NCBI GenBank assembly: GCA_001917585.1
Contig: MNEG01000071.1
Span: forward strand, 1 to 37,887
Origin: Candidatus Rokubacteria bacterium 13_1_40CM_68_15
Lineage (GTDB): Bacteria > Methylomirabilota > Methylomirabilia > Rokubacteriales > CSP1-6
Direction: 5' to 3'
Length of the DNA: 37,887 nucleotides
This document shows, piece after piece, positions 3,401 to 37,857 of this stretch. Both the position numbers and the translations under genes were made by a program. Within the stretch, counting starts at the first letter, position 1; every line of letters starts with the position of its first letter. The notes beneath the pieces are model-generated. The model made no database searches, was not told where the DNA came from, and saw nothing but the letters and a program-made list of their open reading frames with translations.

Positions 3401-6400
3401 CCGGGCCTGGGCGTGGGCGGGCACCGCGCGCGCCGGAAGGACCGGCGCTTGCTTGAAGGCTTCCCACATCGCCGTATCTTCGTGGCCGTCGGCGAACTGG
3501 GACATGACCGGGACGACACGATCGCCGTCCCAGCGCTCGATCGAGCATCGATCGACGCCGCACACCTGGGCGATCTTGATCGTCACGCGCTTGAGGAGCT
3601 GGGTGGCGTCGAGCGTGGACGTGAAGATCTCGGTGACGTCCAGCAGCGCGCGCGTTTCCTCGAGTCGCCGCGTCGTCTCCGTGTACAGGCGCGCGTGATC
3701 GAGCGCGACGGCGGCCTGCGCGGCCAGCGACGCCAGGATGAGCTGGCTCTCGGGCGTGACGACACCCGGCGAGCTGCGGTTCATCGCGAAGACGCCCAGC
3801 ACGCGGTCGCCGATGGCGATCGGATAGGCGAGAAGGTAGCGGAGGTCGTTGTCGATCAGCAGCTGGCGGGCCACGCAGCGCGCGTCGGTCGCCATGTCGG
3901 TCCAGAAGATCGGCTCGCGGTGTTCGGCGACCCAGCCGACGCCGCCCTCTCCCGGCTCGAGCGTCCGGTGGAGCCCGGCGTCGATGCCGGCCGGCGCGAG
4001 GCTCAACGATCGGCGCAGGCGCCGGGTGGCGGGATCGACGACCCAGACGTTGAGGACCGGGGCGTCGAAGAAGCGCGCCACCGCCGTGGTCACGTTACGC
4101 AGGACTTCCTCCATCTGCAGCGACGACGAGACGAGACGGTTGACCTCTTCCAGCGCTCGGAGCCGGTCGCCGAAGTCCCGGGACCGGGCGTACAGCCGAG
4201 CGTTCTGAATCGCGATGGCGGCGTGATCGGCCAGCCGCTGCAGCACCGCCTCGTCACGGTCCGTGAACGCCCGGGGCGTACGGTTGTTGACGCTGACGAG
4301 GCCCTCGACGCGGTCAGCGATGGTGATGGGCACCGCCAGCTCGCTCACGATGCCCTCGGTCCGGACCACCGCCACGAGCTCACGCGGCTTGCGGATGCGC
4401 GGATCCTCCAGCCAGTTCTCGGTGCGGAACGGGCGCCCCGTGCTGATGACGCGTCCCGAGACGCCCCGATCGGCCGTGAGCTGGAAGCCGCCCCAGTCCT
4501 CGTACCGCGTGCCGACCCAGTAGCGGAAGGCGAGCCGGTCCAGCTGGGGATCGCGCAACGCCACACGCGCCATGTCGCTGCTCGACAGCTCCTTGGCGCC
4601 CTCGGCCACGCGCTGGAGCACGGTGTCGATGTCGAGCGACTCGTTGATCGTGCGCGCCAGCACCGCCACCACCTCGGCTTCACGCCGGCGCTGCTCGGCC
4701 TCCTCGTGCAGGCGCGCATTGTCGAGCGCGAGCGCCGCCTGGTCGGCGAGGGCCTGCAAGCGCTCGGCGTCCGTCGACGAGAAGCCGCGCGCCGCGGGAT
4801 CGGCGAGCGTCAGCGTACCGATGATCTTCCCTTTGACCTTCAGGGGCACGGCGAGAATCGCGCGGATGCCCGACGTCTCCAGCCGCTGACGCAGCTCGTC
4901 GCTGATGGGCACGGCGGGATCCTCGAGAACATTCGCCGACCAGACGGCGCGGCCCTCGGCCACGGCGCGCCCGGCGACGCCGGTCCCCGCCGAAAGGACG
5001 TTGCCCGGCGCGAGCTGCTCCCAGCGGGTACCTCCGTAGGCGACGGCCTCGAGGCTGCCGTCGGTCCGCAGCAGCCTGAGCGTCGAGGCCGCGACGCCGA
5101 AGAGCGCCGGGACGTTCTCGACGATGCGGGCGCAGACCTCCCGCGAGTCGAGCGTCTCCGTCAACGCGCGCGCCAGCCGCGCCAGCTCCTCGGCGTAGCG
5201 CCGGCCGCCCTCGGCGTCTTCGTGCAGGCGCGCGTTGTCGAGCGCGAGTGCGGCCTGGTCGGCGAAGGCCTGGGCCAGGCGCACCTCGCGCTCCGAAAAC
5301 TCGTGGGCGACGGTGTCGGAGAGGAACAGGACACCAATCGTCCGGTCCTTGCTGCGGAGCGGCACGGCCAGGACGGACCCGTGCGCGCTCGGGTCGATAC
5401 GGTCCCGGAGGTCGTCGTCGAAGACCACATTTTCATCACGGAGGACTTCGCGGGACCAGACGGGTCCTCCGGCCTCGATGGCGCGAGCGGCCAGGCCCGT
5501 GCCCGGCGCCTGGACGTGGCCAGCCGGGTGCGCCCCGTGACCACCCCAGGCGATGGCGACGAGCCCACCGTCGGGCTGGATGAGGCGTAGACCGGCCGAG
5601 CGCACGCGGAAGAGGGTGAGCACGCTGTCGACGATGCGCTCACCGACCGCCGAGACTTCCAGGCGCTCGGTGAAGATCCGCGCCACCCGGGCCAGCTCCT
5701 CGGCCTCCCGACGGCCCTGCTCCGTCTCCTCGTAGAGGCGCGCATTCTCGAGGGCGATCGCGGCCTGGGTGGCGAAGTGGCCGAGGGCCGCGAGATCCTC
5801 CTCGCTGAACGCGGCGGCCGACTCCCCGAACCGGAACATGCCGATGACGCCGAGAAGCCGGTCGCGGATGACCAGCGGCTGGACGATGGCGTGCCGCGTC
5901 CCGACGCCGACGAGCTCCGGTCGCGCGTAGGGCGACGCCGCGTAGTCGTTGACGAGCCGGCCCTGCCGCTCGAGCGCGCAGGAGCCGACGAGACCGACAC
6001 CGAAGGTAATTCGCTGATCGAAGGAGGCACCCTCGCTCCACGCGCTCGGCGCCAGTGTCTGGCCGGCGGGCTCGACCAGGTAGATGGCGCCTTCGGCGCC
6101 GAAGAGGCGGCTGGCGCGCTCGACGATCAGCGCGAGCAGCCGATCGAGGTCCAGCTCGGCGGCCAGCTCGCGCTCGACCGCGGCCAGCGTTTCGATGTGG
6201 GCACGTCGCGCCGTCTCCAGCGCGAAGAGCCGCGCGTTCTCCAGCGCGAGCGCCGCCTGGTCGGCGAAGGCTTCGGTCAGCCGGATGTCCGCCTCGTCGA
6301 AGGTTCGCCCGGCCCGATCGCCGATGCCGAGGGCGCCGATGACCCGGTCGTGCACGATGAGCGGCACCGTCAGCACGGCGCGATAGCCGGCCGCCTCGAT

Positions 6401-10526: not shown

Positions 10527-10673
10527 TACCTCCCCGTTTGCCCGGGGTGTCAACACGGTTTCTGCAATACCTCCCCGGTTTGCGCGGGGTGTCAACACGG
10601 TTCCGGCGATACCTCCCCGGTTTATCCGGGGTGTCAACACGGTTTCTGCAATACGTCCCTGTTCACGCGGGGG

Positions 10674-24314: not shown

Positions 24315-25463
24315 TCAGAGCGGCAGGTGCTTGGCGATGATCTCGCGCATGATCTCGCTGGTCCCGCCGCCGATGGGCAGCAGCCGCGCGTCGCGCGCGA
24401 AGCGCTCGATCGGATACTCGCGCATATATCCGTAGCCGCCGTGGAGCTGCACACAGTCGTAGGCAACGCGGTTCACCATCTCGGCCGTGAAGAGCTTGAC
24501 CATGGAGATCTCGCGGACGGCCTCCTCGCCCGCCTCGTACTTGAGGCACACCGAGTACGTGAGCGCCCGGGCCGCTTCGAGCTGCGTGGCGCAGTCGGCG
24601 AGCTTGTGGCGCACCACCTGCTTGTCGGACAGCGGGGCACCGAAGGCCTGGCGCTCGCGGACGTAGGCCATCGTGTCGTCGAGCGCCCGGTCGGCCATTC
24701 CGATGGCGTGCAGGCCGGCCACCAGCCGCTCGCGCTGGAAGACGCGCATCACCTCGTAAAAGCCCACGCCTTCGCGGCCGAGCAGGTTTTCGGCGGGCAC
24801 CCGCATGTCCTGAAAGGCGAGCTCGGCCGTGTCGGAGGCGCGCATGCCCATCTTGTCGAGCGTGCGGCTCACCGTAAATCCCGGCGTGTCGCGCTCGACG
24901 AGAAACATCGAGATGCCACGGTGGCGCTTGTCGGCGCTGCCCGCCTCGACGCGCGCGGCCACGAAGAAGACGTCGGCGGTGGCGCCGTTGGTGATGAACA
25001 TCTTGGAGCCGTTGAGCACGTACCGATCGCCGTCGCGCACCGCCCGCGTGCGGATCGCAGCGACGTCGCTGCCTCCGCCGGGCTCGGTCACCGCGATGGC
25101 GGTGAGCAGCTCCCCCCGACACATGCCCGGCAGGTACTTCGTCTTGAGCGCCTCGCTCCCCGTCCAGTAGAGATGGGGCGAGGCCATGTCACAGTGGACG
25201 CCGACGGCCATGGCAAAGGAGCCCGAGCGCGAGCGTGCACACTCTTCATGCAGCACCATCGTCGTGCGGAGGTCGGCGCCGCTCCCTCCGTACTTCTCGT
25301 CGTATTCGAGGCCGAGGAACCCGAGCTCGCCCAGGCGCGGCCAGATCGACCGCGGCATCCGGCCGGCCCCTTCCCACTCTTCGACGTGCGGCATGATCTC
25401 GCGCTCGACGAACTGCCGTACCGTCGCGCGAAACATCTCGTGCTGCTCGTTGAAAATCTTCAT
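24315..25463 (-). CDS. Acyl-CoA dehydrogenase
   Basis: 382 residues from ATG at 25463, the normal length for FAD-dependent acyl-CoA dehydrogenases, which introduce the alpha-beta double bond in acyl-CoAs. Family motifs: GLEYDEKYGGSGAD, AIAVTEPGGGSDVAAI, YVLNGSKMFITNG, DKMGMRASDTAELAF, QLHGGYGYMREYPIERFARD. The C-terminal segment is IGGGTSEIM, so the catalytic glutamate of the medium-chain type (YEGT) is glycine. The alternative base used by long-chain and isovaleryl-type enzymes is probably E245 in QRERLVAG. That points away from straight medium-chain substrates and toward long or branched acyl-CoAs, by analogy only. The PaaK-like gene lies just upstream (50-nt gap), so the acyl-CoA made there is a plausible substrate. 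Confidence 0.95.
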   Translation of the reverse strand: MKIFNEQHEMFRATVRQFVEREIMPHVEEWEGAGRMPRSIWPRLGELGFLGLEYDEKYGGSGADLRTTMVLHEECARSRSGSFAMAVGVHCDMASPHLYWTGSEALKTKYLPGMCRGELLTAIAVTEPGGGSDVAAIRTRAVRDGDRYVLNGSKMFITNGATADVFFVAARVEAGSADKRHRGISMFLVERDTPGFTVSRTLDKMGMRASDTAELAFQDMRVPAENLLGREGVGFYEVMRVFQRERLVAGLHAIGMADRALDDTMAYVRERQAFGAPLSDKQVVRHKLADCATQLEAARALTYSVCLKYEAGEEAVREISMVKLFTAEMVNRVAYDCVQLHGGYGYMREYPIERFARDARLLPIGGGTSEIMREIIAKHLPL

Positions 25464-25513: not shown

Positions 25514-26776
25514 TCAGTCCCACTTTCGCTCGTCGCTGATCTTCTTGGCGCCGTCGGGAATGCTGCCGGCCGACACGACCTGCACGCTGCCGCGCAGCTT
25601 CATCACGTCGCGAATGGCCGCCTCCAGCCTGGGCGTGACGGCCTCGGCGCTGGCGCCGGGGGCCAGCTCCACGCAGAACTTCAGCGAGTCCTGATGGCCT
25701 TCGCGGCCGACGACCACCTGATACTTCGCGATGCCCGACGCCCGGGCGACGACCTCGTCGGCCTGACGAGGGTGGATGAACATCCCTCGGACCTTGGTGA
25801 CCTCGTCGGCGCGCCCGCGCCAGCCGAGCATCCGCGCCGAGGTGCGGCCGCAGGGACAGCGCGCGTCGTCGATGATCGTCAGGTCGCCGGTCCCGAAGCG
25901 GATCATCGGGTACGTCGTGTTGTGGACCGTCGCCACCAGCTCGCCGATCTGGCCGTAGGGCAGCGGCTCGCCGCTCTGAGGATCACAGACCTGGACGACC
26001 GCGTCCTCGACCAGATGCATGCCGGCCTTCTCCGGACACTCGTAGGCGACCAGCCCGAGATCGGCCGTGCCGAAGCCCTGGCGCGTCATGATGCCGTGCT
26101 CGTCCTCGAACTGCTTGCGCAGCGACTCGGGCAGCGGCTCGGCGCCGACCTGGGCGACCTCGAGGCCGAGACGGCCGACGCCCATCTCCTTGGCGCGCTG
26201 CAGGATCGTCATCAGGAAGCTCGGCGTTCCCACGTAGCCGGTGGCGTGGACGGCGCGGGCCACGGTGACCTGCGTGTCGGTGTTGCCGACGCCCGTGGGC
26301 ACCGCCGTGCAGCCGATGAGGTTGAGCGCCTCGTCGAGCTCGTGCGCGGCCGGCACCAGGTGATAGAGGAAGGTGTTGATGACGACGTCGCCGGGCCGGA
26401 AGCCGCCCGCGAAGAGACACGTCTCCGCGTGCCACTCGCTGATCTCGGGGCCCATCGGCTCGAGGATCGGCCCCGGCGACACGAAGATCCTCCGCACCCG
26501 ACGCATCGGGACGGTGCAGAAGCCGCCGAACGGGGGATCGGCCTTCTGCAGATCGGGCATCTCGCTCTTCTTGATGACCGGCAGCCGGGCCAGATCATCC
26601 GGGCCGCGCAAGTCCTTGGGCCCGAGACCGGCACGCTCGAGCCGCCGGCGCACGCCGGGCGCCTTCTCCCAGGCGAGCTCCAGCAGGTCGGCCAGCCACC
26701 GGGCCTGATACCGCTCGCGCGCCGCCGGCGGCATGGTCTCCTTCTCACGGTTCCAGTACCCGCTTCGCCGGTCCAT
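25514..26776 (-). CDS. PaaK-like (phenylacetate-CoA ligase family) adenylate-forming protein
   Basis: 420 residues from ATG at 26776, preceded by GGAGGAG; the track start at 27181 overlaps the haemoglobin gene and is rejected. PaaK-family features: the N-terminal LLELAWEKAPGVRRRLERAG, FGTADLGLVAYEC at the acyl/AMP site, MIRFGTGDLT, CPCGRTSARM with the zinc-type Cys pair, GWRGRADEVTKVRGMFIHPRQ and the C-terminal KISDERKWD. The phosphate-binding loop that is usually SSGTTGKP reads SPGPILEPMG here (about residues 100-109), a marked departure that may change ATP handling. PaaK enzymes make aryl- or acyl-CoA thioesters; the substrate here is unknown. It follows the truncated haemoglobin gene by 17 nt and precedes the acyl-CoA dehydrogenase gene. 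Confidence 0.88.
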   Translation of the reverse strand: MDRRSGYWNREKETMPPAARERYQARWLADLLELAWEKAPGVRRRLERAGLGPKDLRGPDDLARLPVIKKSEMPDLQKADPPFGGFCTVPMRRVRRIFVSPGPILEPMGPEISEWHAETCLFAGGFRPGDVVINTFLYHLVPAAHELDEALNLIGCTAVPTGVGNTDTQVTVARAVHATGYVGTPSFLMTILQRAKEMGVGRLGLEVAQVGAEPLPESLRKQFEDEHGIMTRQGFGTADLGLVAYECPEKAGMHLVEDAVVQVCDPQSGEPLPYGQIGELVATVHNTTYPMIRFGTGDLTIIDDARCPCGRTSARMLGWRGRADEVTKVRGMFIHPRQADEVVARASGIAKYQVVVGREGHQDSLKFCVELAPGASAEAVTPRLEAAIRDVMKLRGSVQVVSAGSIPDGAKKISDERKWD

Positions 26777-26793: not shown

Positions 26794-27240
26794 TCACTGC
26801 GCGACGATGTCCTTCTTCATGGGCGCGAGCAGCCCGATCAGCTCCTCCTGGTCCTTCTTCGCGACCTTGCGCTTGTCGAGCGCCTTGATCAGGTCTTCCA
26901 CGGTCGCATTCCAGTCGGCCTCGGTGATGGCCATCCCCTGGTGGGCGGCCTTCATGTCCTTGCCCAGGTACGAGCACGGCCCGCCCGTCGCCTCGCACAC
27001 CTGATCGGAGGCGTTGGTCTTCAGCTTCTCGACCTGCGCCGGCGTCAGCTTGGTGAACCGGGCGTTGACGCGCGGATCGGCCACGAGGAACGCCACGAAG
27101 TCGTCGACGACTCCTCGGATGCCGTCGCGCCCGCCCAGCCGCTTGTACAGTGTCGGCTCCGGCTCGCCCATCGTTGCGCACGCGCCCAGCGTGACCACCA
27201 ACACGGCCAGCAACACGATCCCACCGAGGACTCTCTTCAC
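26794..27240 (-). CDS. Lipid-anchored group I truncated haemoglobin
   Basis: 148 residues from GTG at 27240, with AGGAGGG upstream. The N-terminus is a lipoprotein signal, VLLAVLVVTLGAC (lipobox cysteine C21). The mature part is a truncated globin of the group I type: LYKRLGGRDGIRGVVDDFV, VNARFTKL, GGPCSYLGKDMKAAHQGMAIT with the proximal haem-ligand histidine H100, and ADWNATVEDL. At the B10 position, usually Tyr (VDDFY) in this family, Val appears to be present, so oxygen or NO stabilisation should differ. Truncated haemoglobins bind O2, NO or CO and are mostly cytoplasmic, so export with a lipid anchor is unusual. The gene is embedded between livF1 (11-nt gap) and the PaaK-like gene (17-nt gap). 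Role unknown; NO/O2 protection or electron transfer at the membrane are guesses. Confidence 0.88.
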   Translation of the reverse strand: MKRVLGGIVLLAVLVVTLGACATMGEPEPTLYKRLGGRDGIRGVVDDFVAFLVADPRVNARFTKLTPAQVEKLKTNASDQVCEATGGPCSYLGKDMKAAHQGMAITEADWNATVEDLIKALDKRKVAKKDQEELIGLLAPMKKDIVAQ

Positions 27241-27251
27241 GCCCCGCCCTC

Positions 27252-28046
27252 CTAGCTCAGCCAGCGCTTGCGGCGCTTGTAGTGCTTCACGTCCCGGTAC
27301 GACTTCCGAGCCCCCACTTCGGTGAGGCCCAGGTAGAACTCCTTGATGTCGGCGTTCGCGCGCAGCGCCTCGGCCGTGCCCTCAAGGACGATTCGGCCAT
27401 TTTCTATCACGTACCCGTGCTCCGCGATCGTCAGCGCCAGCGTCGCGTTCTGCTCGACCAGCAGCACGGTCAGCTGCTCCTGGCGATTGAGGCGCTGGAC
27501 GATGGCGAAAATCTCCTCGACCAGCATCGGCGCCAGTCCGAGCGATGGCTCGTCGAGCAGCATCACGCGCGGAGTCGACATGAGTGCGCGGCCGATGACG
27601 AGCATCTGCTGCTCGCCGCCGGAAAGATACCCCGCCTGCACGGCGCGGCGCTCGCGCAGCCGCGGGAAATACTCGTACACGCGATCGATGCCCTGGCGCA
27701 CGCGCTGGCGGTCGCCCTGCACGTGGGCGCCCGCGATCAGATTCTCCTCGGTCGTCAGGTGCTCGAAGACGCGGCGTCCCTCGAAGACCTGCACGACGCC
27801 CTGCTTGACCACCACGTGCGGCGGCAGCCGGTCGATGCGCGTGCCATGGAGCTCGATCGAGCCCTTGGTCACCTCGCCGCGCTCGGCGCGGAGCAGGCCG
27901 GAGATGGCCTTGAGGGTCGTCGTCTTGCCGGCGCCGTTGGCGCCGAGCAGCGTGGTGATGCCGCCCTCAGGGACGTTGAGCGACACCCCCTTGAGGACGA
28001 GGATGACGCCGTCGTAGATGACCTCGATGTTGTTGAGCGTGAGCAT
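27252..28046 (-). CDS. livF: Branched-chain amino acid-type ABC transporter ATPase LivF (copy 1)
   Basis: 264 residues from ATG at 28046. ABC ATPase motifs: Walker A GANGAGKT (35-42), Q-loop region VVQVFEGRRVFEHLT, signature LSGGEQQ (141-147), Walker B VMLLDEPSLGL and the switch histidine replaced by the LivF-type LLVEQNA. It powers uptake with LivG and the LivH/LivM permeases. The C-terminus carries a basic tail KSYRDVKHYKRRKRWLS almost identical to that of livF2. No ribosome site is visible: the 30 nt before the ATG are a 26-bp GC palindrome, so expression may depend on that structure or on coupling to livK1. Confidence 0.95.
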   Translation of the reverse strand: MLTLNNIEVIYDGVILVLKGVSLNVPEGGITTLLGANGAGKTTTLKAISGLLRAERGEVTKGSIELHGTRIDRLPPHVVVKQGVVQVFEGRRVFEHLTTEENLIAGAHVQGDRQRVRQGIDRVYEYFPRLRERRAVQAGYLSGGEQQMLVIGRALMSTPRVMLLDEPSLGLAPMLVEEIFAIVQRLNRQEQLTVLLVEQNATLALTIAEHGYVIENGRIVLEGTAEALRANADIKEFYLGLTEVGARKSYRDVKHYKRRKRWLS

Positions 28047-28084: not shown

Positions 28085-29320
28085 CTACTTCTTGGCCGCG
28101 TCCTTCACGTGCTTGGCGACGACGTCGCCGTACGCGTGGAACCAGTCCGTCTGCTTCTCGAACTTCCCACCCTTGACCTGCCAGATCTGGACCAGGCCGC
28201 CGCCCTCGTGGTCAGTCGCCGTGATCTTCAGCGGCGGCACCAGTCCGCCGAGCGTGAAGTTGTTGATCTGCTCGAAGCCCTTCTTCACGTCCTCGCCCGT
28301 GATCTTGCCGTCGGGCTTGCCCTTCACCGCGTTGCGGATGGCCTCGACGTGGAGCGCCGCGATGAGGACGCCCCGGTTGTAGTACACCGTGGACGCCATC
28401 TCCTTCGGCGCCTCCTTGCCCTCCTTCTTGTACATCTCGCGGATCTCGTTCAGCACCGGGTAGTCGGTGCCGACGCCCGCGAACTGCATGACGTTGTAGC
28501 CCTCGGCGACCGACCAGCCGCCGGCCGCCTCGATGTCGGCCTCGGCCGAGCCCCATACGAACGAGACGACCTTGCGCAGCGGATAGCCCACGCGCTTCAG
28601 CTCCTTGATGGAGACCGACGGCGATCGGCCGAACAGGTGAGCGATCACGAAGTCGGCGTGGTAACGCTGGGCGATGTCCAGCACCTGGGCGCCCATCTCC
28701 ACGCCGGGCGGTGGCACCGCGAACGTCTTGAGCTGGAAGCCTTCCTTGGCCGACAGGTCCTCGATCACAGGGATCGGCTCACGCCCGGCGGGGTTGTCGA
28801 AAAAGAGATATGCGATCTTCTTGCCCTTCAGCGAGCCGCCGAGCTGCTTCTTGGTGAAATCGACCGCGGCCGCGCCCTGCGACCAGTACGTCGCGGCGAT
28901 GGGAAAGATGTACGGATAGCGCTGGCCGTCGGCGGCTGCGGCCGAGCCGAAGCCGGGCGACGTCCCGGGGATGCGGTCTTCAGTGAGCTTCTGAGTCATC
29001 GCGTAGATGTGCGGCGTGCCGTATACGCCAATCACCACCGCGCCTTCCTTCTTGTGCCGTTCGTAGGCTTCCATCCCCTGCGGCACCTTGTATTCGTGGT
29101 CGATCTCAACGGCCCGGATCTTGTGGCCGTCCACCCCGCCCTTGGCGTTCACCAGCCTGATGTAGTCGTGATAGCCGGGGCACAGGTTGACGCCCACAGT
29201 CTGCGTGGCGCCCGTGCGGTCGCACTGCAGGCCGATGACGATCTCGTGGTTCGCCGCGGCCGGCATCGCCGAGCCCGCGGCGAGCGCGACTCCGATCAGG
29301 ATCGCGAGGATCTGTCTCAT
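28085..29320 (-). CDS. livK: ABC transporter substrate-binding protein, Liv/PBP1 type (copy 1)
   Basis: 411 residues from ATG at 29320 with AGGAGAG upstream; the 837-aa track ORF starts inside livM1 and is not the gene. The signal peptide MRQILAILIGVALAAGSAMP ends near AAA-NHEIVIG. The mature chain opens with the PBP1 pattern IVIGLQCDRTGATQTVGVNL and continues LVNAKGGVDGHKIRAVEID, VIGVYGTPHIYAMTQKLTED and GKKIAYLFFDNPAGREP, typical of two-lobed type I periplasmic binding proteins for branched-chain amino acids, amides or aromatic acids. The classical amino-acid-binding residues of LivJ are not evident, so a non-amino-acid ligand is plausible, in keeping with adjacent acyl-CoA ligases. Confidence 0.92.
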   Translation of the reverse strand: MRQILAILIGVALAAGSAMPAAANHEIVIGLQCDRTGATQTVGVNLCPGYHDYIRLVNAKGGVDGHKIRAVEIDHEYKVPQGMEAYERHKKEGAVVIGVYGTPHIYAMTQKLTEDRIPGTSPGFGSAAAADGQRYPYIFPIAATYWSQGAAAVDFTKKQLGGSLKGKKIAYLFFDNPAGREPIPVIEDLSAKEGFQLKTFAVPPPGVEMGAQVLDIAQRYHADFVIAHLFGRSPSVSIKELKRVGYPLRKVVSFVWGSAEADIEAAGGWSVAEGYNVMQFAGVGTDYPVLNEIREMYKKEGKEAPKEMASTVYYNRGVLIAALHVEAIRNAVKGKPDGKITGEDVKKGFEQINNFTLGGLVPPLKITATDHEGGGLVQIWQVKGGKFEKQTDWFHAYGDVVAKHVKDAAKK

Positions 29321-29346: not shown

Positions 29347-30414
29347 TCAGTACGCGAACGGCCAGACACGGAAGTAGCTGCGGATGTTCCGCCACAGCCG
29401 GTTCAGCCCCTCGGGTTCGACGACGAGGAAGACGATGATGAGGGCCCCGAAGAGGATGAGCCGGAGGTTGGGGATGATGTTGAGCACCGACGCCTCGGAA
29501 AAGAACAACCCGCCGAACGCTTCCATCGCGTAACGGATCACGATGGGCAGCAGCGTGACGAAGATCGCCCCGAAGACCGAGCCCTGGACGGACCCGAGCC
29601 CCCCGATGATGATCATCGCGAGGTAATCGATCGACACGTTGATCTGGAACTGCTCGTAGTTCGCCACCCCGAGATAGTACGTGTAGAGGACGCCGGCCAC
29701 GCCGGCGTAGAACGACGACACGGCGAAGGCCAGGAGCTTGTAGCGGAAGATGTTGATGCCGATGAGCTCGGCGGCGATGTCGTGGTCGCGGATCGCGATG
29801 AAGGCGCGGCCGATGCGACTCCGCATGAGGTTCATCGTTCCCACCAGCGCGAGCACGACGAAGACGAGCAGGAAGAAGTACATCTGCACCTGGGAGGCGA
29901 TGCGGTATCCGAAGATCTCCGGGCGCGGCACCTCGATCGACGCCTGCACGCCGCCGCTGATGAAGGTGACGTGGTTGATCGTCCACTCGATGATGAGCTG
30001 GCCGGCCAGGGTGGCGATGGCCAGGTACAGGCCCTTGATGCGCAGCGACGGCATGCCGACCACGGCGCCCACCGCCGCCGCCATCAGGCCGCCGGCCAGG
30101 AGGTTGACGGGCCACGGCGCGCCGAGCCGCACCGCGAAGTTCGCCGCCGTGTAGGCGCCCACCGACATGAAGGCGCCGTGGCCGACCGAGATCTGGCCGG
30201 TGTAGCCCACCAGGATGTTGAGGCCGAGCGCGCCGATGATGGCGATCGAGCAGAGATTGACGACCGAGAGGTAATACTCGTGGACGCTGAGCGGAAGCAC
30301 GACGAAGAAGAACACGGCGAGCGCGGCCACCGTCCACTTTGCGATCGGCAGCGGATAGAGCGCCATGTCCGCCTCGTACGTCGTCTTGAGCACGCCGCAC
30401 TCGCGATGAATCAT
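29347..30414 (-). CDS. livM: Branched-chain amino acid-type ABC permease LivM (copy 1)
   Basis: 355 residues from ATG at 30414; the start is supported by alignment with livM2 (MIHRECGVLKTTYEAD against MIYREAGQFKTSYAAD). About nine or ten TM helices are visible, with the LivM core NILVGYTGQISVGHGAFMSVGAYTAA, VGMPSLRIKGLYLAIATLA, the EAA-like cytoplasmic loop FIAIRDHDIAAELIGIN and IGGLGSVQGSVFGA. It forms the membrane channel with LivH. Its start ATG shares ATGA with the stop of a 71-codon ORF lying between it and livH. Confidence 0.95.
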   Translation of the reverse strand: MIHRECGVLKTTYEADMALYPLPIAKWTVAALAVFFFVVLPLSVHEYYLSVVNLCSIAIIGALGLNILVGYTGQISVGHGAFMSVGAYTAANFAVRLGAPWPVNLLAGGLMAAAVGAVVGMPSLRIKGLYLAIATLAGQLIIEWTINHVTFISGGVQASIEVPRPEIFGYRIASQVQMYFFLLVFVVLALVGTMNLMRSRIGRAFIAIRDHDIAAELIGINIFRYKLLAFAVSSFYAGVAGVLYTYYLGVANYEQFQINVSIDYLAMIIIGGLGSVQGSVFGAIFVTLLPIVIRYAMEAFGGLFFSEASVLNIIPNLRLILFGALIIVFLVVEPEGLNRLWRNIRSYFRVWPFAY

Positions 30415-30626
30415 GGTGTACTTCCACCGATCGTGGTGGAGGATCGGAGGGTCCCGGGCTGGGCGGCACCCCTGTGAGACCCGTATCTTCTGGGTACCGC
30501 GTCGGCCCCGGCTGCGAATCGTGGCCCGAATACGTCGCGCAACGCAGCGTCGATTTGCGTGGTCGAACAGGGGCGCCGTCCGGCCCGGGACCCTGCATTG
30601 CTCGAGCGCGTCAGGTTGATGTTCAT
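30411..30626 (-). CDS. Possible small ORF coupled at both ends by ATGA overlaps (71 aa)
   Basis: Between livH and livM1 the reading frame opened by ATG at 30626 shares its first bases with the livH stop (ATGA), and its TGA stop (30411-30413) shares bases with the livM1 ATG (ATGA). It encodes MNINLTRSSNAGSRAGRRPC and continues to TTIGGSTP, 71 residues, basic and Gly/Ser/Arg-rich without TM segments. AAAGGA precedes the start. Against it, third positions are only about 70% G or C and rare AGA AGA codons occur, unlike the flanking genes, and no family is recognised. It may be a real small protein, a translational-coupling leader, or chance. Confidence 0.35.
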   Translation of the reverse strand: MNINLTRSSNAGSRAGRRPCSTTQIDAALRDVFGPRFAAGADAVPRRYGSHRGAAQPGTLRSSTTIGGSTP

Positions 30627-31516
30627 ATCCTTTCGATGATGCGCTTGCCGAAGATGCCATACGGTCGAATCATCAGCGCCAGGATCATTAGCACGTACGG
30701 CGCGAAGTCCTTGGTCCCGCCGCCCACGTAGGGGTCGACGTAGCCGGCGGCGACGTTCTCGACGATCCCCACGATGAGGCCGCCGACGATCGCGCCCGGG
30801 ATCGAGTCGAGCCCGCCCAGGATCACGACCGGGAAGACCTTGAAGCCGACGAGCGCGAGATGCACGTCCACGCCGAGGAGGCTCCCCCACACCACACCGC
30901 CCAGGGCGGAGACGACGCCGGTCATCGCCCACGCCAGCGCGAAGTAGCGCTCGACGTTGATACCCATGGCCATGGCCACCTGCTGGCTGTCGGCGACGGC
31001 ACGCATCGCGATGCCCTTGCGCGACTTGAGGAAGAACCAGCCGAACCCGGCGAGGAAGGCGAGGCTCACGACCGCGCCGACGATCTGGATGGGCGGGATG
31101 AAGAGCGGCCCCAGCACGAACGGCTCGTCGCTGATCGGTAGGGCCAGGTTCTTGGTGTCGGCGCCCCAGGTGAGCGGCCCGATGCCGCGCAGCACCGCGG
31201 CCAGCCCGATCGTCGCCATGACGACGGCGATGACCGGGCGGCCGATGAGCTTGCGCAAGACCGCGCGCTCGAGGCCGAAGCCGAACGCGATCATGGCGGC
31301 GAGTCCGCACACGACCGAGAGCCAGAGCGGCGCCTTGTAGGACAGCAGGAAGGCGACGACCACGAAGCCGGCGATCATCACGAACTCGCCCTGGGCGAAG
31401 TTGATGGCGTCGGTCGCCTTGTAGACGAGGACGAAGCCGAGCGCGATCAGCGCGTACATCAGGCCGATGAGCACGCCGTTCGAGAGCAGGAGGAGCGAGA
31501 ACTGCCAGTCAAGCAT
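30623..31516 (-). CDS. livH: Branched-chain amino acid-type ABC permease LivH
   Basis: 297 residues from ATG at 31516, overlapping the acyl-CoA synthetase stop by 8 nt. About eight TM helices. LivH core motifs: NGVLIGLMYALIALGFVLVY, ATDAINFAQGEFVMIAGF, the cytoplasmic loop SRKGIAMRAVADSQQVAMAMGIN (the coupling segment contacting the ATPase), GVDVHLALVGFKVFPVVILGGLDSIPGA and the C-terminal MIRPYGIFGK. Partner of LivM in the permease pore. Only one livH is visible; a second livH for module 2 may lie beyond 37887. Confidence 0.95.
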   Translation of the reverse strand: MLDWQFSLLLLSNGVLIGLMYALIALGFVLVYKATDAINFAQGEFVMIAGFVVVAFLLSYKAPLWLSVVCGLAAMIAFGFGLERAVLRKLIGRPVIAVVMATIGLAAVLRGIGPLTWGADTKNLALPISDEPFVLGPLFIPPIQIVGAVVSLAFLAGFGWFFLKSRKGIAMRAVADSQQVAMAMGINVERYFALAWAMTGVVSALGGVVWGSLLGVDVHLALVGFKVFPVVILGGLDSIPGAIVGGLIVGIVENVAAGYVDPYVGGGTKDFAPYVLMILALMIRPYGIFGKRIIERI

Positions 31517-33446
31517 GGGCGGGGCTCCCCTCGACGTCCTCGAGGTGCACGCGCGACTGGATCGTCCCCTGCCGGCCGTCCTCGTACGTGATGGTGGTCG
31601 TCATCGCCACCTCGGCCTTGCCCGAGTAGAAGGCGTCGACGACGGCGGCGTACTTCTCGGCCACGAAGCGCCGGCGGACCTTGCGCGTCCGGGTGATCTC
31701 GGCGTCGTCGGCATCGAGATCCTTGCTGAGTAGCAGGAAGCGCCGGATCTTCGTGGCGTCGGGCAGCGTGGCGTTGCACTTGGCGATCTCGTCGCGGAGG
31801 AGCCCGCGGATCTCCGGCTTCTGCGAGAGGTCGGCGTACGACGTGTAGGCGAGACCACGGCGCTCGGCCCAGTTGCCGACGGTCGAGAGATCGATAGCGA
31901 TCATCGCCGTCACGAAGGCCCGATCGTGGCCGAAGGCGACGGCCTCCCGGATGTAGGGGCTGAACTTCAGCTTGTTCTCGATGAACTGGGGCGCGAACGG
32001 CGTGCCCTCACTGAGGGTGCCCACGTCCTTGGCGCGGTCGATGATGACCAGGTGGCCGCGGGGATCGATGAAGCCGGCGTCGCCGGTGCGATACCAGCCG
32101 TCGTGGTCGACGACCTCGCGCGTGGCCTCGTCGTTCCTGTAGTAGCCCTTGAAGATGCCGGCGCCGCGCACCAGGACCTCGCCCTTGTCGGCGATGCGGA
32201 CCTCGATGCCGCGGCACGGCCGTCCCGCCGAGTCCGGATTGGCCTCACGATCGGGCTGCAGTGACACGAGGCCGGTCGTCTCCGTGGAGCCATACACTTG
32301 CTTGAGATTGATGCCGAACCCGCGGAAGAAGCGAAACGTGTCGGGGCCGAGCGGCGCGCCGCCCGTCAGCGCCCACCGCGTGCGACGGAGGCCGAGCTGG
32401 TCGCGTACCGGCCCGTAGACGAAGAAGTCGCCGAGCGCATAGCCGAGCCGCAGCCCGAGAGGGACCGGCTTGCCGTCGGCGCGCAGGATCTCGACGCGCT
32501 CGGCGACCGCCCGGCTGCGCTCGAAGATCCAGCGCTTGAGCGGCGAGGCGTCCGCCGCCCGCACGAGGACGCCGGTCAGCATGTTCTCCCAGATTCGCGG
32601 CGGCGCCAGCAGCGTCGTCGGTCCCAGCTCGCGGAGATCGCGCTGCACGGTCTCGGGGCTCTCCGGGCAGTTGACGGTGAACGCGGCGGCGAGGCTCGAG
32701 AAGAGCGTGTAGACGGCATCGCCGGCCCACGCCATCGGAAGATACGCGAGGTAGTCGTCGCTGAGCCGGACGTCCTCCTCTCTCATGAACGTCTCGGCGA
32801 AGGCGATGGCGTTGGCGTGGGTGAGCATCGCGCCCTTGGGATTGCCGGTCGTGCCCGACGTATAGCAGATGTTGGCGACGTCGTCGCGCCGCCCCCTGGC
32901 GATCTCTTCCGCGAAGAAGGCGGGATGCTGCCGGCCGTACTCGCGCCCGAGCTCCTGGACCTCGGTGTAGGACTTGAGCCACTCGTGGCGGTAGGTGAGC
33001 ATGCCCCGCGGATCGTCGTAGACGACCAGACGGACCATCGGGAGCTCGGCCTTCAGCGCGACGACCTTGTCGACCTGCTCCTGGTCCTCGGCGATGATCA
33101 CCGACACCTCGGCGTGGTTCCAGACGTAGGCCAGCTCCTTGGCGATGGAATCCTGGTACGCCGGGACCGAGACCCCGCCCAGGCACTGCGCCGCCACCTG
33201 GGCCCAGTACAGACGCGGGCGGTTGTCGCCGATCACGGACAGCCGGTCGCCGCGCCTGAAGCCGAGAGCGGCCAGCCCGAGCGCCAGATCGCGGACCTGA
33301 TCTCGGTACTGAGTCCACGTGTGCGTCTGCCAGATCCCGCGATCCTTCTCGCGCATCGCCGGTCGGGCGCCGTATTGCTCGGCGTTGCGCAGCATGAGCT
33401 TGGGCAATGTGTCGACGGTCGTCGAAATCATTTCACCGCTCGCCAT
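31509..33446 (-). CDS. Long-chain-type acyl-CoA synthetase (AMP-forming)
   Basis: 645 residues from ATG at 33446; an alternative ATG at 33431 (giving MISTTVDTLPKLM) follows GCGGTGA and is equally likely because the first 15 nt lie in the 56-bp repeat array. Motifs: P-loop ICYTSGTTGNPKGAMLTHAN, YLPMAWAGD, VYGSTETTGLVSLQ, GWYRTGDAGFIDPRG, then DRAKDVGTLSEGTPFAPQ where most homologues have a GGKNIAPQ-type loop. It activates a carboxylic acid to its CoA thioester. Long-chain-type synthetases encoded inside liv clusters are thought to trap imported acids. It sits between livG and livH, the stop overlaps the livH start, and it should be made together with the transporter. Confidence 0.94.
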   Translation of the reverse strand: MASGEMISTTVDTLPKLMLRNAEQYGARPAMREKDRGIWQTHTWTQYRDQVRDLALGLAALGFRRGDRLSVIGDNRPRLYWAQVAAQCLGGVSVPAYQDSIAKELAYVWNHAEVSVIIAEDQEQVDKVVALKAELPMVRLVVYDDPRGMLTYRHEWLKSYTEVQELGREYGRQHPAFFAEEIARGRRDDVANICYTSGTTGNPKGAMLTHANAIAFAETFMREEDVRLSDDYLAYLPMAWAGDAVYTLFSSLAAAFTVNCPESPETVQRDLRELGPTTLLAPPRIWENMLTGVLVRAADASPLKRWIFERSRAVAERVEILRADGKPVPLGLRLGYALGDFFVYGPVRDQLGLRRTRWALTGGAPLGPDTFRFFRGFGINLKQVYGSTETTGLVSLQPDREANPDSAGRPCRGIEVRIADKGEVLVRGAGIFKGYYRNDEATREVVDHDGWYRTGDAGFIDPRGHLVIIDRAKDVGTLSEGTPFAPQFIENKLKFSPYIREAVAFGHDRAFVTAMIAIDLSTVGNWAERRGLAYTSYADLSQKPEIRGLLRDEIAKCNATLPDATKIRRFLLLSKDLDADDAEITRTRKVRRRFVAEKYAAVVDAFYSGKAEVAMTTTITYEDGRQGTIQSRVHLEDVEGSPAHA

Positions 33447-33725
33447 TTTTGGTCATTTCACCGCTCGGCTCGCCCGTCGGACGGTCTCACCTCGCACATT
33501 CCGGTCATTTCACCGCTCGTCGTTTTCGGTCATTTCACCGCTCGGCTCGCCCGTCGAACGGTCTCACCTCGCACTGCCATTCCGGTCATTTCACCGCTCG
33601 GCTCGCCCGTCGAACGGTCTCACCTCGCACTGCCATTCCGGTCATTTCACCGCTCGGCTCGTCCGTCGGACGGTCTCGCCTCGCACTGCCACGCTCGACG
33701 CGGCTCACCTCGCACTGCCATCACG
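33427..33725. repeat. 56-bp tandem repeat array between livG and the acyl-CoA synthetase gene
   Basis: Full units of 56 nt start at 33528 and 33584, a near-full unit at 33640, a 52-nt unit at 33451 and truncated units at 33427, 33503 and about 33701. Each begins (plus strand) GGTCATTTCACCGCTCGGCT and ends near CTCGCACTGCCATTCC. The outer edges are coding: the 3' edge contains the last codons and stop of livG (GSAR-stop), and the 5' edge contains the first codons of the synthetase, so the unit looks like a copied gene junction. Each unit read on the minus strand carries GAGGTGA and GGTGAAATG, resembling a ribosome site and a start codon. The 11-mer TCGCACTGCCA recurs at 36770-36780 in front of livK2. 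Confidence 0.9.
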
Positions 33726-34487
33726 TTTCTCGCCCAGATAGGCGCGGATGACGGCCGGGTTGCTGCGCACCTCGTCGGGCTTGCCCTCGGCGATCTTCTG
33801 CCCCATGTCGAGAACGGCCACCCGGTCGGAGATGTCCATCACCACGCCCATGTCGTGCTCGATGAGGGCGATCGTCGTGCCCCACTCCTCGTTGACGTCG
33901 AGGATGAAGCGCGCCATGTCCTCTTTCTCCTCCTGGTTCATGCCGCCCATCGGCTCGTCGAGCAGGAGGATCTTGGGATCCAGCGCGAGCGCGCGGCCGA
34001 GCTCCACCCGCTTCTGCAGCCCGTAGGGCAGCGAGCCGGTGGGCCGCCGTCTCAGATCCTGGATCTTCAGGAAGTCGATCAGGTCCTCCACCCGTTTGCG
34101 GTGCGCGACCTCCTCCTTCTGGGCCAACCCCCAGTACACGAACGAGCTCAGCACGCCCGCCTTCATGTGCACGTGACGACCCAGCATGAGGTTGTCGAGC
34201 ACGGTCATGCCGCGGAAGAGCGCGATGTTCTGGAACGTGCGCGCCACGCCCAGCGTGGCGATGGCGCTCGGGTGGTGCTCGGTGATATCGACGCCGTCGA
34301 GGACGATGCGGCCGCTGTTCGGGTGGTAGAAGCCGTTCACCATGTTGAGCAGCGTCGTCTTGCCGGCGCCGTTGGGGCCGATGACGGACAGCATCTCGCC
34401 GCGCGGCACGTCGAGGCTCACGCGCGTGACCGCCTGCACGCCGCCGAAGGCCTTCGACACCTCGCGGATCTCGAGCTGCGCGCTCAC
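33705..34487 (-). CDS. livG: Branched-chain amino acid-type ABC transporter ATPase LivG
   Basis: 260 residues from GTG at 34487, chosen over the track start at 34496 because AGAGG then lies 8 nt upstream instead of overlapping the start. Walker A GPNGAGKTTLLNM, LivG-type VARTFQNIALFRGMTVLDNL, a signature region degenerate at SLPYGLQKRVELGRAL (LPYGLQK in place of LSGGQQ, normal for LivG), Walker B ILLLDEPMGGMN and switch LIEHDMGVVMDISD. The C-terminal codons lie in the 56-bp repeat. Pairs with LivF to drive import. Confidence 0.95.
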   Translation of the reverse strand: MSAQLEIREVSKAFGGVQAVTRVSLDVPRGEMLSVIGPNGAGKTTLLNMVNGFYHPNSGRIVLDGVDITEHHPSAIATLGVARTFQNIALFRGMTVLDNLMLGRHVHMKAGVLSSFVYWGLAQKEEVAHRKRVEDLIDFLKIQDLRRRPTGSLPYGLQKRVELGRALALDPKILLLDEPMGGMNQEEKEDMARFILDVNEEWGTTIALIEHDMGVVMDISDRVAVLDMGQKIAEGKPDEVRSNPAVIRAYLGEKRDGSAR

Positions 34488-34505
34488 GACAGCCACCTCT
34501 TTTTG

Positions 34506-34632: not shown

Positions 34633-35433
34633 TCACGACAGCCACCGTTTGCGGCGACGGTAGTGCTTCACGTCTCGGTAGCTCTTGCGCTGCCCGACGC
34701 CCGACAGCCCGAGGTAGAACTCCTTGATGTCCTCGTTGTCGATGATCGTCCTCGCGTCGCCGTCGAGCACGATGCGCCCGTTCTCCATCACGTAGCCATA
34801 CTGGGCGAACTTGAGCGCCATCGTCGCGTTCTGCTCGGCGAGCAGGACGGCCACGCCTTCCTCGCGATTGAGCCGGCTGACGATGTCGAAGATCTCGGCC
34901 ACCAGCAGCGGGGCCAGCCCCATCGAGGGCTCGTCGAGCAGCATCAACCGGGGATGGGCCATGAGCGCGCGTCCGATCGCCAGCATTTGTTGCTCGCCGC
35001 CGGAAATATAGCCGGCCATGACGGTGCGCCGCTGCGTGAGGCGCGGAAAGTATTCATATACGCGGGCGAGATCGGTCTTGAGTGAATCGCCGTTGCGCCG
35101 GCTGTAGGCGCCGGTGAGGAGATTCTCTTCGACGGTGAGATGCTCGAAAACGTGCCGTCCCTCCATCACCTGCACGATGCCGCGCCGCACCACCTCGTCG
35201 GGATTGCGGCGATGGGTGGCCTCACCCTGAAACTCGATCGAGCCTTTGGTGACGTCGCCCCGCTCGGTCCGCAGCAACCCCGAGATGGCCTTGAGCGTGG
35301 TCGATTTGCCGGCGCCGTTGGCCCCGAGGAGGGCGACGATGCCCCCCTCGGGAACCTGCAGCGACACGCCTTTCAACACGAGGATCACGTGATCGTAGAT
35401 CACCTCGATGTTGTTGACGGACAGAAGCGCCAC
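34633..35433 (-). CDS. livF: Branched-chain amino acid-type ABC transporter ATPase LivF (copy 2)
   Basis: 266 residues from GTG at 35433 (MALLSVNNIEVIYDHVILVL), with GGAG a few bases upstream and TAGTG overlap with the livK2 stop; the 308-aa track ORF extends into livK2 and is rejected. Walker A GANGAGKSTT, signature ISGGEQQM, Walker B LMLLDEPSMGLAP and LLAEQNA. Strongly similar to copy 1 over its whole length, including the basic tail KSYRDVKHYRRRKRWLS, so the two are clear paralogues. Works with livK2, livM2 and probably the shared LivG. Confidence 0.95.
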   Translation of the reverse strand: MALLSVNNIEVIYDHVILVLKGVSLQVPEGGIVALLGANGAGKSTTLKAISGLLRTERGDVTKGSIEFQGEATHRRNPDEVVRRGIVQVMEGRHVFEHLTVEENLLTGAYSRRNGDSLKTDLARVYEYFPRLTQRRTVMAGYISGGEQQMLAIGRALMAHPRLMLLDEPSMGLAPLLVAEIFDIVSRLNREEGVAVLLAEQNATMALKFAQYGYVMENGRIVLDGDARTIIDNEDIKEFYLGLSGVGQRKSYRDVKHYRRRKRWLS

Positions 35434-36755
35434 TACTTCTCCTTGGCGCAATCTCGCATGGTGTAACCGAGCTTCTTGCCTTCCTCCACCGCCGCCGCCT
35501 CGATCTTCGGGCGGACCACCTCGCGCATCGGCTGGATCCAGTCGGAGACGACGCTCCACTTCTTACCGTCCCACTGCTGGACGAGGATGGGGCCGCTCGA
35601 CTCGTGGTCCTCGCAGCTCACCTTCACCGGGTGGGTGAAGCCCTTCATCCCCAACTCCTCGAGCCGCTTGTCGGTGAGGGTGAGGTGCTCGAAGCCCCAG
35701 CGCACCTGCTCGCCGGTCATCGGCTTGTTGCCGTACTGCGCCATCGCGGTACGGACGGCCTCGACGGCGAACATCGCGTTGACGATGCCGCGATTGTAGA
35801 GCGGCTCGCCCATGCTCTCTTTCTTGCCGGCCCCCTTGCCCTTGTCGTAGACGTGCTTGGCGATCTCCTGGAACACCTTGAAGTTCGTGCCGGGAGCGTG
35901 GAACGTCGCGCCCTTGTAACCCTTGGCGCCGTCACCGGCCGGCACCACGTCGGAGTCGTTGGCCGACCACCAGTTGCCGATGAAGTGGTCCATCTTGAAG
36001 TTGATGGAGGCCGCTTCCTTGATGCCGACCTGGTTCATCACGCCCCAGCCCGACATGAAGACCCAGTCGGGATTGAGACGGCGCACCTGCAGCCACGTCG
36101 ACTTCTGCTCCTGGCCGGGATGATCGACCGGCAGCAGGGTCAGCTCGAACCCGAACTGGCGCGCCAGCGTCTCCAGCGTGGGGTTCGCTTCCTTCCCGTA
36201 GGGACTGTTGTGGTGGACGTGGACGATCTTCTTGCCTTTGAGCTTGTCGAGCCCGCCCTCTTGAGTACCGATGTAGCGGATGACGGCGGAGGCCTGGCTC
36301 CAGTAGTTGGTCGGGAAGTTGAACACCCACGGGAACCAGCGCCCGTCCGACGAGGCACTCATGCCATAACCCATCGACAGGATCGGCGCCTTGTCCACCG
36401 GCGCCTTGGGAATGAGCTGATAGGTGATCCCGGTCGAGTACGGGTTGACCACGACGGCGCCGGTCGGGCCCTTGCCCTTGAGACGCTCATAGCATTCCAC
36501 GCCCTGCTTGGTGTCGTATTGCGTCTCGCACTCTTCCCAGGCGAGCTTGACGCCGTTGATACCCCCGTCGCGCTCGTTCACGAGCGTGAAGTAGTCGACG
36601 AAGCCGTTGGCGATGGGGATCCCGCTCGGCGCGTAGGGACCGGTGCGGTAGACCAGCAGCGGGACGAAGACTTCCTTGGCCTGCGCGAACACGGCGGGAG
36701 CCGCGGGGCCCGCCATCACGGCCAGCGCCAGCACGGCGATCAGGATTTTGCTCAT
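35433..36755 (-). CDS. livK: ABC transporter substrate-binding protein, Liv/PBP1 type (copy 2)
   Basis: 440 residues from ATG at 36755, with GAGGAGG upstream. Signal peptide MSKILIAVLALAVMAGPAAP, cleavage near FAQA-KEVFVP. The mature protein shows VPLLVYRTGPYAPSGIPIAN, NERDGGINGVKLAWEECETQ, KGKKIVHVHHNSPYGKEANP and GFTHPVKVSCEDHESSGPIL. Only distantly similar to copy 1, so the two binding proteins probably carry different ligands. Related binding proteins are reported to bind aromatic acids such as p-coumarate or benzoates as well as amino acids; the ligand here is not determinable. The leader 36756-36780 carries TGGCAGTGCGA, shared with the 56-bp repeats. Confidence 0.92.
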   Translation of the reverse strand: MSKILIAVLALAVMAGPAAPAVFAQAKEVFVPLLVYRTGPYAPSGIPIANGFVDYFTLVNERDGGINGVKLAWEECETQYDTKQGVECYERLKGKGPTGAVVVNPYSTGITYQLIPKAPVDKAPILSMGYGMSASSDGRWFPWVFNFPTNYWSQASAVIRYIGTQEGGLDKLKGKKIVHVHHNSPYGKEANPTLETLARQFGFELTLLPVDHPGQEQKSTWLQVRRLNPDWVFMSGWGVMNQVGIKEAASINFKMDHFIGNWWSANDSDVVPAGDGAKGYKGATFHAPGTNFKVFQEIAKHVYDKGKGAGKKESMGEPLYNRGIVNAMFAVEAVRTAMAQYGNKPMTGEQVRWGFEHLTLTDKRLEELGMKGFTHPVKVSCEDHESSGPILVQQWDGKKWSVVSDWIQPMREVVRPKIEAAAVEEGKKLGYTMRDCAKEK

Positions 36756-36780
36756 GACATCCTCCTCTTTCGCACTGCCA

Positions 36781-37857
36781 CTAGTGTGGGAACGGCCAGA
36801 GTCGCAACTTTTCCTTGGTGATCTGCCAGAGACGCGCGAGCCCCTGGGGCTCCACGATCAGAAAGAAGATGATGAGAGCCCCGAAGACCATCAGCTCGAT
36901 CTGTTTCTGCAGCGCCACCGGCAGCCCGATGCCGATGAGATGGGGCGCGTTGGTCAGGAAGATGGGCACCAGCACGATGAAGCCGGCGCCGAGGAACGAG
37001 CCCAGGATACTGCCGAGGCCGCCGATGATGACCATGAACAGCACGAGGAAGGAAAGCGCGATGTCGAACGCGAGCGTCTCTGCGCTGCCGAGATAGAGGA
37101 ACACGAACTCGGCGCCGGCCACCCCGCAGTAGAACGACGAGATGGCGAAGGCGAGCAGCTTGGTGCGGAGTGGGCGCACGCCGATGATCTCGGCGGCGAT
37201 GTCGCGGTCGCGGATGGCCATCCACGAGCGGCCCACGCGCCCGCGCACGAGGTTCTTGGCCACCCACGCGAAGACGACGACGAGGCCGAGGGCGACGACG
37301 TAGCGGACGGCCGCGGTCGCCTCCGGTCCGGTCACCATCACGCCGGCCACGGTGCGCGGCGGCGCGGTGATCGTGCCCGACGGCGCATAGTTGACGAACC
37401 ACGCGACCTTGTTGAACAGCCAGAGGAGAAAGAACTGGGCGGCCAGCGTGGCCACGGCCAGGTAGAAGCCCTTGATGCGCAGGCTCGGAATGCCGAACAC
37501 GATCCCGACGCCGGCGGCGACGAGGCCGGACAACACGAAGACGAGGACCACGTTGAGCGACGGAAACGCGGTCGTGAGCTTGAACGCGCTGTAGGCGCCG
37601 ACGGCCATGAAGCCGCCGGTGCCCAGCGAGAGCTGGCCGGCGTACCCCGTCAGGAGATTGAGCCCGAGCGCCGCGAGCGCGTAGATGAGAAACGGGATGA
37701 GGACTGCCTGCAGCCAGTACTCGTTGGCGACGAGCGACGGCACCAGGAACGCAGCCGTGAGCAGCACGGCGACGAAGATGCGGTCCTGGACGATCGGAAA
37801 GATCGCTTGATCTGCGGCGTAACTCGTCTTGAACTGTCCCGCCTCGCGGTAGATCAC
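36781..37857 (-). CDS. livM: Branched-chain amino acid-type ABC permease LivM (copy 2)
   Basis: 358 residues from GTG at 37857 with GGAG about 9 nt upstream. LivM core motifs NLLTGYAGQLSLGTGGFMAVGAYSAF, FGIPSLRIKGFYLAVATLAAQ, the coupling loop WMAIRDRDIAAEIIGVRPL and IGGLGSILGSFLGA. About ten TM helices. The N-terminal cytoplasmic extension MIYREAGQFKTSYAADQAIF matches that of livM1. A livH partner would be expected upstream, beyond the window; the last 30 nt of the window (37858-37887) hold only the leader. Confidence 0.95.
   Translation of the reverse strand: MIYREAGQFKTSYAADQAIFPIVQDRIFVAVLLTAAFLVPSLVANEYWLQAVLIPFLIYALAALGLNLLTGYAGQLSLGTGGFMAVGAYSAFKLTTAFPSLNVVLVFVLSGLVAAGVGIVFGIPSLRIKGFYLAVATLAAQFFLLWLFNKVAWFVNYAPSGTITAPPRTVAGVMVTGPEATAAVRYVVALGLVVVFAWVAKNLVRGRVGRSWMAIRDRDIAAEIIGVRPLRTKLLAFAISSFYCGVAGAEFVFLYLGSAETLAFDIALSFLVLFMVIIGGLGSILGSFLGAGFIVLVPIFLTNAPHLIGIGLPVALQKQIELMVFGALIIFFLIVEPQGLARLWQITKEKLRLWPFPH

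Follow-up and report, generated by a model that had tools for sequence, protein, structure and literature searches.

Truncated haemoglobins (trHbs) have mostly been studied as soluble cytoplasmic proteins, and their function is uncertain. One of the described proteins closest to the globin analyzed here is the TrHbN-2 type protein SbHbN of S. benthica (PDB 8UGZ, 8TLS; PMC11904497): It has the same group-1 2-on-2 fold that is predicted for our protein, and both have hydrophobic residues at B10, E7, and E11, a Cys at E16, and the proximal His. However, the solved SbHbN chain carries no signal sequence, has Phe at B10, Tyr at CD1, and His at B13, lacks a second Cys, and has not been described in connection with an operon. 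The M. tuberculosis protein HbN (PDB 1IDR, 1S56), Foldseek's top match by E-value, differs in its pocket, which has Tyr B10 and Gln E11 as in NO dioxygenases, and in having no lipobox; according to work cited in PMC9536834, it is found at the cell surface by another route. A trHb located at the surface is also described for B. subtilis, where YjbI shows a protein-hydroperoxide peroxidase-like activity (PMC9536834). YjbI shares with our protein the action outside the cytoplasm (predicted here) and a possible antioxidant role, but it belongs to group II, has no signal sequence and another pocket, and is not encoded in a transporter operon. The pentahaem cytochromes lPHCtX of cable bacteria (PMC11976967) contain a trHb domain for which an action in the periplasm is proposed, but this domain is fused to a multihaem cytochrome and is not a stand-alone lipoprotein. 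With respect to gene neighborhood, operons for ABC transporters of the LIV-I branched-chain amino-acid type have the same livH, livM, livG, livF, and substrate-binding protein genes, whereas the operon described here has acyl-CoA ligases, an acyl-CoA dehydrogenase, and a globin embedded in it, and its ATPases score under the LivF and LivG equivalog cut-offs.

Rokuibacteriota are abundant uncultured soil bacteria. In the window, the whole stretch of 37,887 nt analyzed here from Candidatus Rokubacteria bacterium 13_1_40CM_68_15, all genes of the operon including that of the trHb lie on the minus strand (table 1), in the order livM2, SBP2, livF2, livG, FadD11-like synthetase, livH, livM1, SBP1, livF1, globin, PaaK-like ligase, and acyl-CoA dehydrogenase from the window edge. 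The preliminary description of this DNA had placed the trHb between genes for an ABC ATPase and an acyl-CoA-forming enzyme with gaps of 11 and 17 nt, and profiles identify both neighbors as such: 11 nt separate the livF1 stop (27252) from the trHb start, the AGGAGGG ribosome-binding site of the trHb overlaps this stop, and 17 nt lie between the trHb gene and the PaaK-like start (26776). The Liv-type set is complete, with LivF, LivG, and the binding protein recognized by profile, and livH and livM assigned solely from their place in the operon and its conservation. SBP2 is close to PDB 4ru0, and the PDB relatives of the PaaK-like ligase are phenylacetate-CoA and 2-hydroxyisobutyryl-CoA ligases. 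From this gene content, the operon looks like one for the uptake of a carboxylic acid, the formation of its CoA ester, and a first oxidation. A naming of the acid from PDB relatives was dropped, the matches being distant and mostly to unannotated liv binding proteins and PaaK-type ligases. Neither reductase or oxygenase genes nor oxidase genes were identified in the operon.

Table 1. Features of the globin gene and of the surrounding operon, with positions in the window.
Feature	Position	Strand	Basis or remark
Second liv set (livF2, SBP2, livM2)	34633..37857	-	Conserved in relatives; upstream end of the operon, reaches the window edge
livG, LivG-type ABC ATPase	33705..34496	-	Profile match
Long-chain acyl-CoA synthetase-like (FadD11-like)	31509..33446	-	Profile matches
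livH-type permease	30623..31516	-	ORF and conserved position
livM1, livM-type permease, start uncertain	29347..30559	-	ORF and conserved position
SBP1, Liv-type substrate-binding protein	28085..29320	-	PF13458, E 5.7e-44; distant to PDB 4ru0
livF1, LivF-type ABC ATPase, upstream neighbor of trHb	27252..28046	-	Profile matches
trHb lipoprotein gene	26794..27240	-	148 aa, GTG start at 27240; group-1 truncated haemoglobin
trHb protein layout			Signal peptide 1-20, predicted lipidated Cys21, globin domain about 30-146
trHb signal peptide with lipobox LGA-C	27181..27240	-	Codons 1-20; Cys21 codon 27178-27180
C82-x6-C89 pair (QVCEATGGPCSY)	26972..26997	-	Proposed disulfide, end of helix E to EF loop
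Codon of proximal His F8 (His100)	26939..26941	-	Invariant in 52/52 aligned exported relatives
PaaK-like acyl-CoA ligase (AMP-forming), downstream of trHb	25514..26776	-	NCBIfam PaaK models, Pfam AMP-binding
Acyl-CoA dehydrogenase, last conserved operon gene	24315..25463	-	Profiles; orthologues 73-95% identical in relatives

Direct repeats were also observed in the window: four copies of a 56-nt repeat occupy the intergenic region between livG and the acyl-CoA synthetase gene, within the operon (33447-33691), and three copies of a 44-nt intergenic repeat lie at 10532-10659. A single reading frame of 2880 aa (464-9106, minus strand) encodes some twelve GAF domains together with a histidine kinase and a receiver domain.

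The globin matches the Pfam family PF01152 (Bac_globin) with an E-value of 1.9e-13 and 51.1 bits against a cut-off of 21, and it is the only PF01152 gene found in the source genome (84% complete); the NCBIfam profiles assigned no family to it. Its nearest relatives of solved structure are group-1 trHbs, namely SbHbN (E 4e-16) and HbN (E about 3e-13). AlphaFold modeling of the mature protein with 54 relatives gave a mean pLDDT of 94 and a pTM of 0.85, and group-1 trHbs are the best Foldseek matches of the model, with TM 0.87 and rmsd 1.0-1.2 for HbN and a target TM of 0.96 and rmsd of about 1.1 for SbHbN; a 2-on-2 globin fold is confidently predicted. The lipobox and the proximal His claimed in the preliminary description are both present, the former as LGA before Cys21 (MKRVLGGIVLLAVLVVTLGA followed by C21, read by rule from the translation) and the latter as His100. 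A lipobox is seen in most operon-type relatives, and the source genome encodes LspA and Lgt of the export machinery; the trHb is predicted to be a lipoprotein-type protein located outside the inner membrane. One operon-type globin (L057:8207-8713) has a longer N-terminal region with extra Cys residues in place of the usual short lipoprotein signal. Haem binding, the disulfide, lipid anchoring, and every chemical function of the trHb are properties that we infer.

Alignment to SbHbN places Val49 at B10, where SbHbN has Phe, Leu52 at B13, Phe62 at CD1, Leu73 at E7, Asn76 at E10, Ala77 at E11 (Leu in most relatives), and His100 at F8. The TrHbN-2 subgroup is defined by hydrophobic residues at B10, E7, E11, and G8 (PMC11904497), and Val49, Leu73, and Ala77 agree with this at the first three positions. 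The position aligned with G8, so named from the alignment and not from a structure, is Thr113 in the operon-type proteins and Leu in the others; Thr113 may occupy this place in the pocket. By its pocket residues, the protein would be classed as a TrHbN-2-like group-1 truncated globin. The preliminary description had pointed to a Val in place of Tyr B10 as unusual. The residue is indeed Val, but it is no oddity: among the 52 aligned exported relatives, 43 have Val at B10, 5 have Ile, 2 have Thr, and 1 each has Ala or Arg, whereas Phe CD1, the two Cys, Tyr91, and His F8 are shared by all 52 without exception. This group norm, together with the purifying selection on the mature part described below, rules out a reading of Val B10 as decay or as special chemistry. 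The combination typical of NO dioxygenases, a Tyr at B10 and a Gln at either E7 or E11, is absent (Val49, Leu73, Ala77), and a low O2 affinity is predicted for pockets of this kind (PMC11904497, PMC4720485), which disfavors NO dioxygenase chemistry.

The globin search gave matches in 49 of 99 related genomes, and also in 49 when run across the 95 genomes of the phylum. The conservation of the neighborhood, which the preliminary description had proposed as a check, holds well beyond this genome: the order livF-trHb-(ligase)-acyl-CoA dehydrogenase recurs in 37 genomes of 16 genera, all from one family of the Rokuibacteriota, ruling out a neighborhood unique to this genome. Wherever an operon-type case has its upstream flank on the contig, livF lies immediately before the trHb and on its strand (G023, whose contig ends there, was left out). 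Downstream, where the flank is readable, a PaaK-type or other AMP-forming ligase usually follows, with the acyl-CoA dehydrogenase directly after the trHb in three loci; the next reading frame overlaps the globin gene by 4 nt in 11/37 loci, when a script sets its start to the earliest one possible in a long frame. Judged by this gene order, the trHb is a genuine member of the operon. It should be noted that the globin is missing from six related operons with liv genes and downstream enzymes (G003, G009, G010, G012, G029, and, from a sister family, G058), which rules out that it is always part of the operon, and no globin remnants were seen in the frames read at the globin-less junctions L152, L154, and L156. 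As these six operons are otherwise conserved, the globin is not needed for transport and is dispensable, though frequent. The Rokuibacteriota genomes additionally carry unlinked exported trHb paralogues. A second, more distant type of liv operon has globins with an insert replacing LGG near the domain start (L058, L060-L065, L045:9687-10163).

Phylogenetic analysis of 78 proteins, based on 119 columns with a bootstrap not fully settled and with SbHbN as the sole outgroup on a very long branch, separated the operon-type trHbs from the others by a single branch supported at 100/99. Their distances track those of their operon partners, with Mantel r ranging from 0.32 (SBP1) to 0.68 (PaaK, 8 loci); such a pattern agrees with joint inheritance of globin and operon, although a common species history would by itself produce a degree of correlation. 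A signature in helix G also sets the operon type apart, with Trp110/Thr113 in 22/22 sequences against Phe/Leu in 30/30 other exported trHbs. Two operon-located globins on a very long branch, L067 (G044) and L068 (G035), are without Trp110/Thr113 and keep both Cys and the proximal His. Comparison with a congener gave a dN of 0.051 and a dS of 0.299 for the mature trHb (dN/dS about 0.17) and a dN of 0.47 and a dS of 0.48 for the signal peptide, which is free to vary; purifying selection acts on the mature protein only. The globin evolves faster than its neighbors, with a mean identity of 66% versus 80% for livF1. The predicted fold (pLDDT 94), the conserved mature domain, and the recurrence of the junction in 37 genomes argue that this trHb is not a product of chance.

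A scan of genome contigs returned 329 relatives of the exported trHb. The best 80 of these are mostly from Nitrospira, with others from the Pseudomonadota, Acidobacteriota, Chloroflexota, and further groups, and none of these 80 has a comparable liv operon beside it; nor was a liv link outside the phylum found in eight strong matches from 369 genomes of the class to which a Thiobacillus locus belongs. The exported trHbs of Nitrospira and others, for which we found no published name, share with the operon type the signal peptide or lipobox, the CxxxxGGPC pair, the invariant His and Phe, and Val or Ile at B10, but they have no adjoining liv genes and carry Phe/Leu in place of Trp110/Thr113. Exported trHbs with CxxxxGGPC are widespread beyond this operon. 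Among the distinct relatives, a signal-like N-terminus and the second Cys occur together in 117, the signal alone in 1, the Cys alone in 5, and neither in 12 (Fisher p about 2e-12, a value that overstates independence because the sequences are kin). The lone signal-only case (L034) is an artefact of the pattern, its sequence reading CDATGGPC, and most of the 12 with neither are paralogues that look cytoplasmic and come from the same phylum. That the export signal and the second Cys travel together suggests a disulfide between Cys82 and Cys89, formed outside the cytoplasm.

The neighbor genes of the non-operon loci, identified via one representative per cluster, include an ECF sigma-factor gene in 20 loci (upstream and divergent in 18, within 300 nt in 17), an anti-sigma gene in 17, the representative of which has a ChrR cupin domain, and a LysR-type gene in 10. 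At L095:8166-9128, L103:4658-5485, and similar Nitrospira loci, the exported trHb is divergent from the ECF sigma gene, and a gene for a ChrR-cupin anti-sigma factor lies close by. Two Nitrospira, one of them Nitrospira moscoviensis, encode an exported trHb that carries a cytochrome P460 domain (PF16694) fused to its C-terminus (L084:9941-10861 and L100:9968-10885). Some proteins of the Nitrospira group thus differ from the operon type in a P460 fusion or a divergent ECF/ChrR pair. Oxidative stress and NO/hydroxylamine chemistry are settings in which ChrR/ECF pairs and P460 proteins are known, and their presence beside or within these relatives is a lead pointing to redox or nitrogen-oxide stress.

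Our preferred reading, to which we give somewhat less than even confidence, is that of an anchored TrHbN-2-like globin, inherited with its operon, that handles NO, peroxide, or O2 at the envelope during the import of an organic acid and its activation to the CoA ester. A group-1 globin would have joined the liv/acyl-CoA-ligase operon in the ancestor of one Rokuibacteriota family and then been passed on with it. The protein would be expressed along with the transporter and matured by Lgt and LspA, and the Cys82-Cys89 disulfide would most likely stiffen it; haem b would be bound via His100, in a pocket that is largely hydrophobic and lies outside the cytoplasmic membrane. There the protein would most likely deal with these small redox-active molecules and so shield the machinery of acid uptake and activation, or its respiratory output. 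Such an envelope redox role is supported by the invariance of the haem ligands, by the stress contexts in which relatives occur, and by YjbI as a surface-located precedent among the trHbs (PMC9536834); it is weakened by the origin of these contexts, which come from relatives in another phylum and not from this operon, by the Phe found here in place of the peroxide-linked Tyr CD1 of SbHbN, by the globin-less operons, and by the lack of any identified reductase or oxygenase gene in the operon. It is from gene order only that we infer a functional tie to acid uptake and activation, and we consider it unlikely that the haem lipoprotein is a working accessory of the transporter and the acyl-CoA ligase, sensing or removing NO, peroxide, or O2 to protect or gate these steps.

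The six operons without the gene make it nearly as likely as any single chemical role that the trHb is a bystander, a general envelope-stress globin that shares a promoter with a highly expressed transporter and has no functional tie to the acid. We regard this as doubtful: the globin has been kept at the exact junction over 16 genera, with overlapping frames in 11 loci and despite the unlinked exported paralogues, and Trp110/Thr113 (22/22) distinguishes it from the Phe/Leu of the others (30/30), even if its faster evolution (66% against 80% for livF1) and the homologues in unrelated places elsewhere, like the globin-less operons, would suit a bystander. A low-affinity carrier or store, with the anchored globin as an O2 buffer at the membrane for the respiration driven by acid catabolism, would match the low O2 affinity published as a prediction for the subgroup, given Val49 (B10), Leu73 (E7), and Ala77 (E11), and would agree with the acyl-CoA dehydrogenase in the same operon. 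A monomeric lipoprotein is an improbable bulk store, however, the operon holds no identified oxygenase or oxidase, and the operons of six relatives work without the globin; the O2 carrier is in our estimate rather unlikely. Least probable, and very unlikely, is a repurposed globin that has given up haem chemistry and acts in the periplasm as a binder or chaperone, passing a probably hydrophobic acid to the substrate-binding protein: without haem, the invariance of the proximal His and of the CD1 Phe would be difficult to account for, and one or two dedicated binding proteins are already part of the liv system, although the predicted lipoprotein, its gene beside that of a substrate-binding protein, the hydrophobic pocket, and the Thr for Leu in helix G of the operon type would all be compatible with such a function.

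In the literature searched, of which coverage is thin for subscription journals, we found no description of a lipoprotein trHb within a transporter/acyl-CoA operon, in agreement with the claim of the preliminary description that this arrangement had not been described, and no paper on trHb-P460 fusions. The fold and the subgroup are known; what is new is the location and the conserved operon, a pairing that is real and apparently undescribed. With a fixed genomic partner, the function of a trHb becomes testable, and the reading as a transporter accessory would, if true, link a globin to the import of carboxylic acids, a connection not previously described. The analysis also brings to attention the exported trHbs with an export-linked Cys pair as a broad and little-studied group, in which the Cys pair and, in Nitrospira, the P460 fusion and the divergent ECF/ChrR regulators offer concrete hypotheses for the roles that group-1 trHbs may have outside the cytoplasm.
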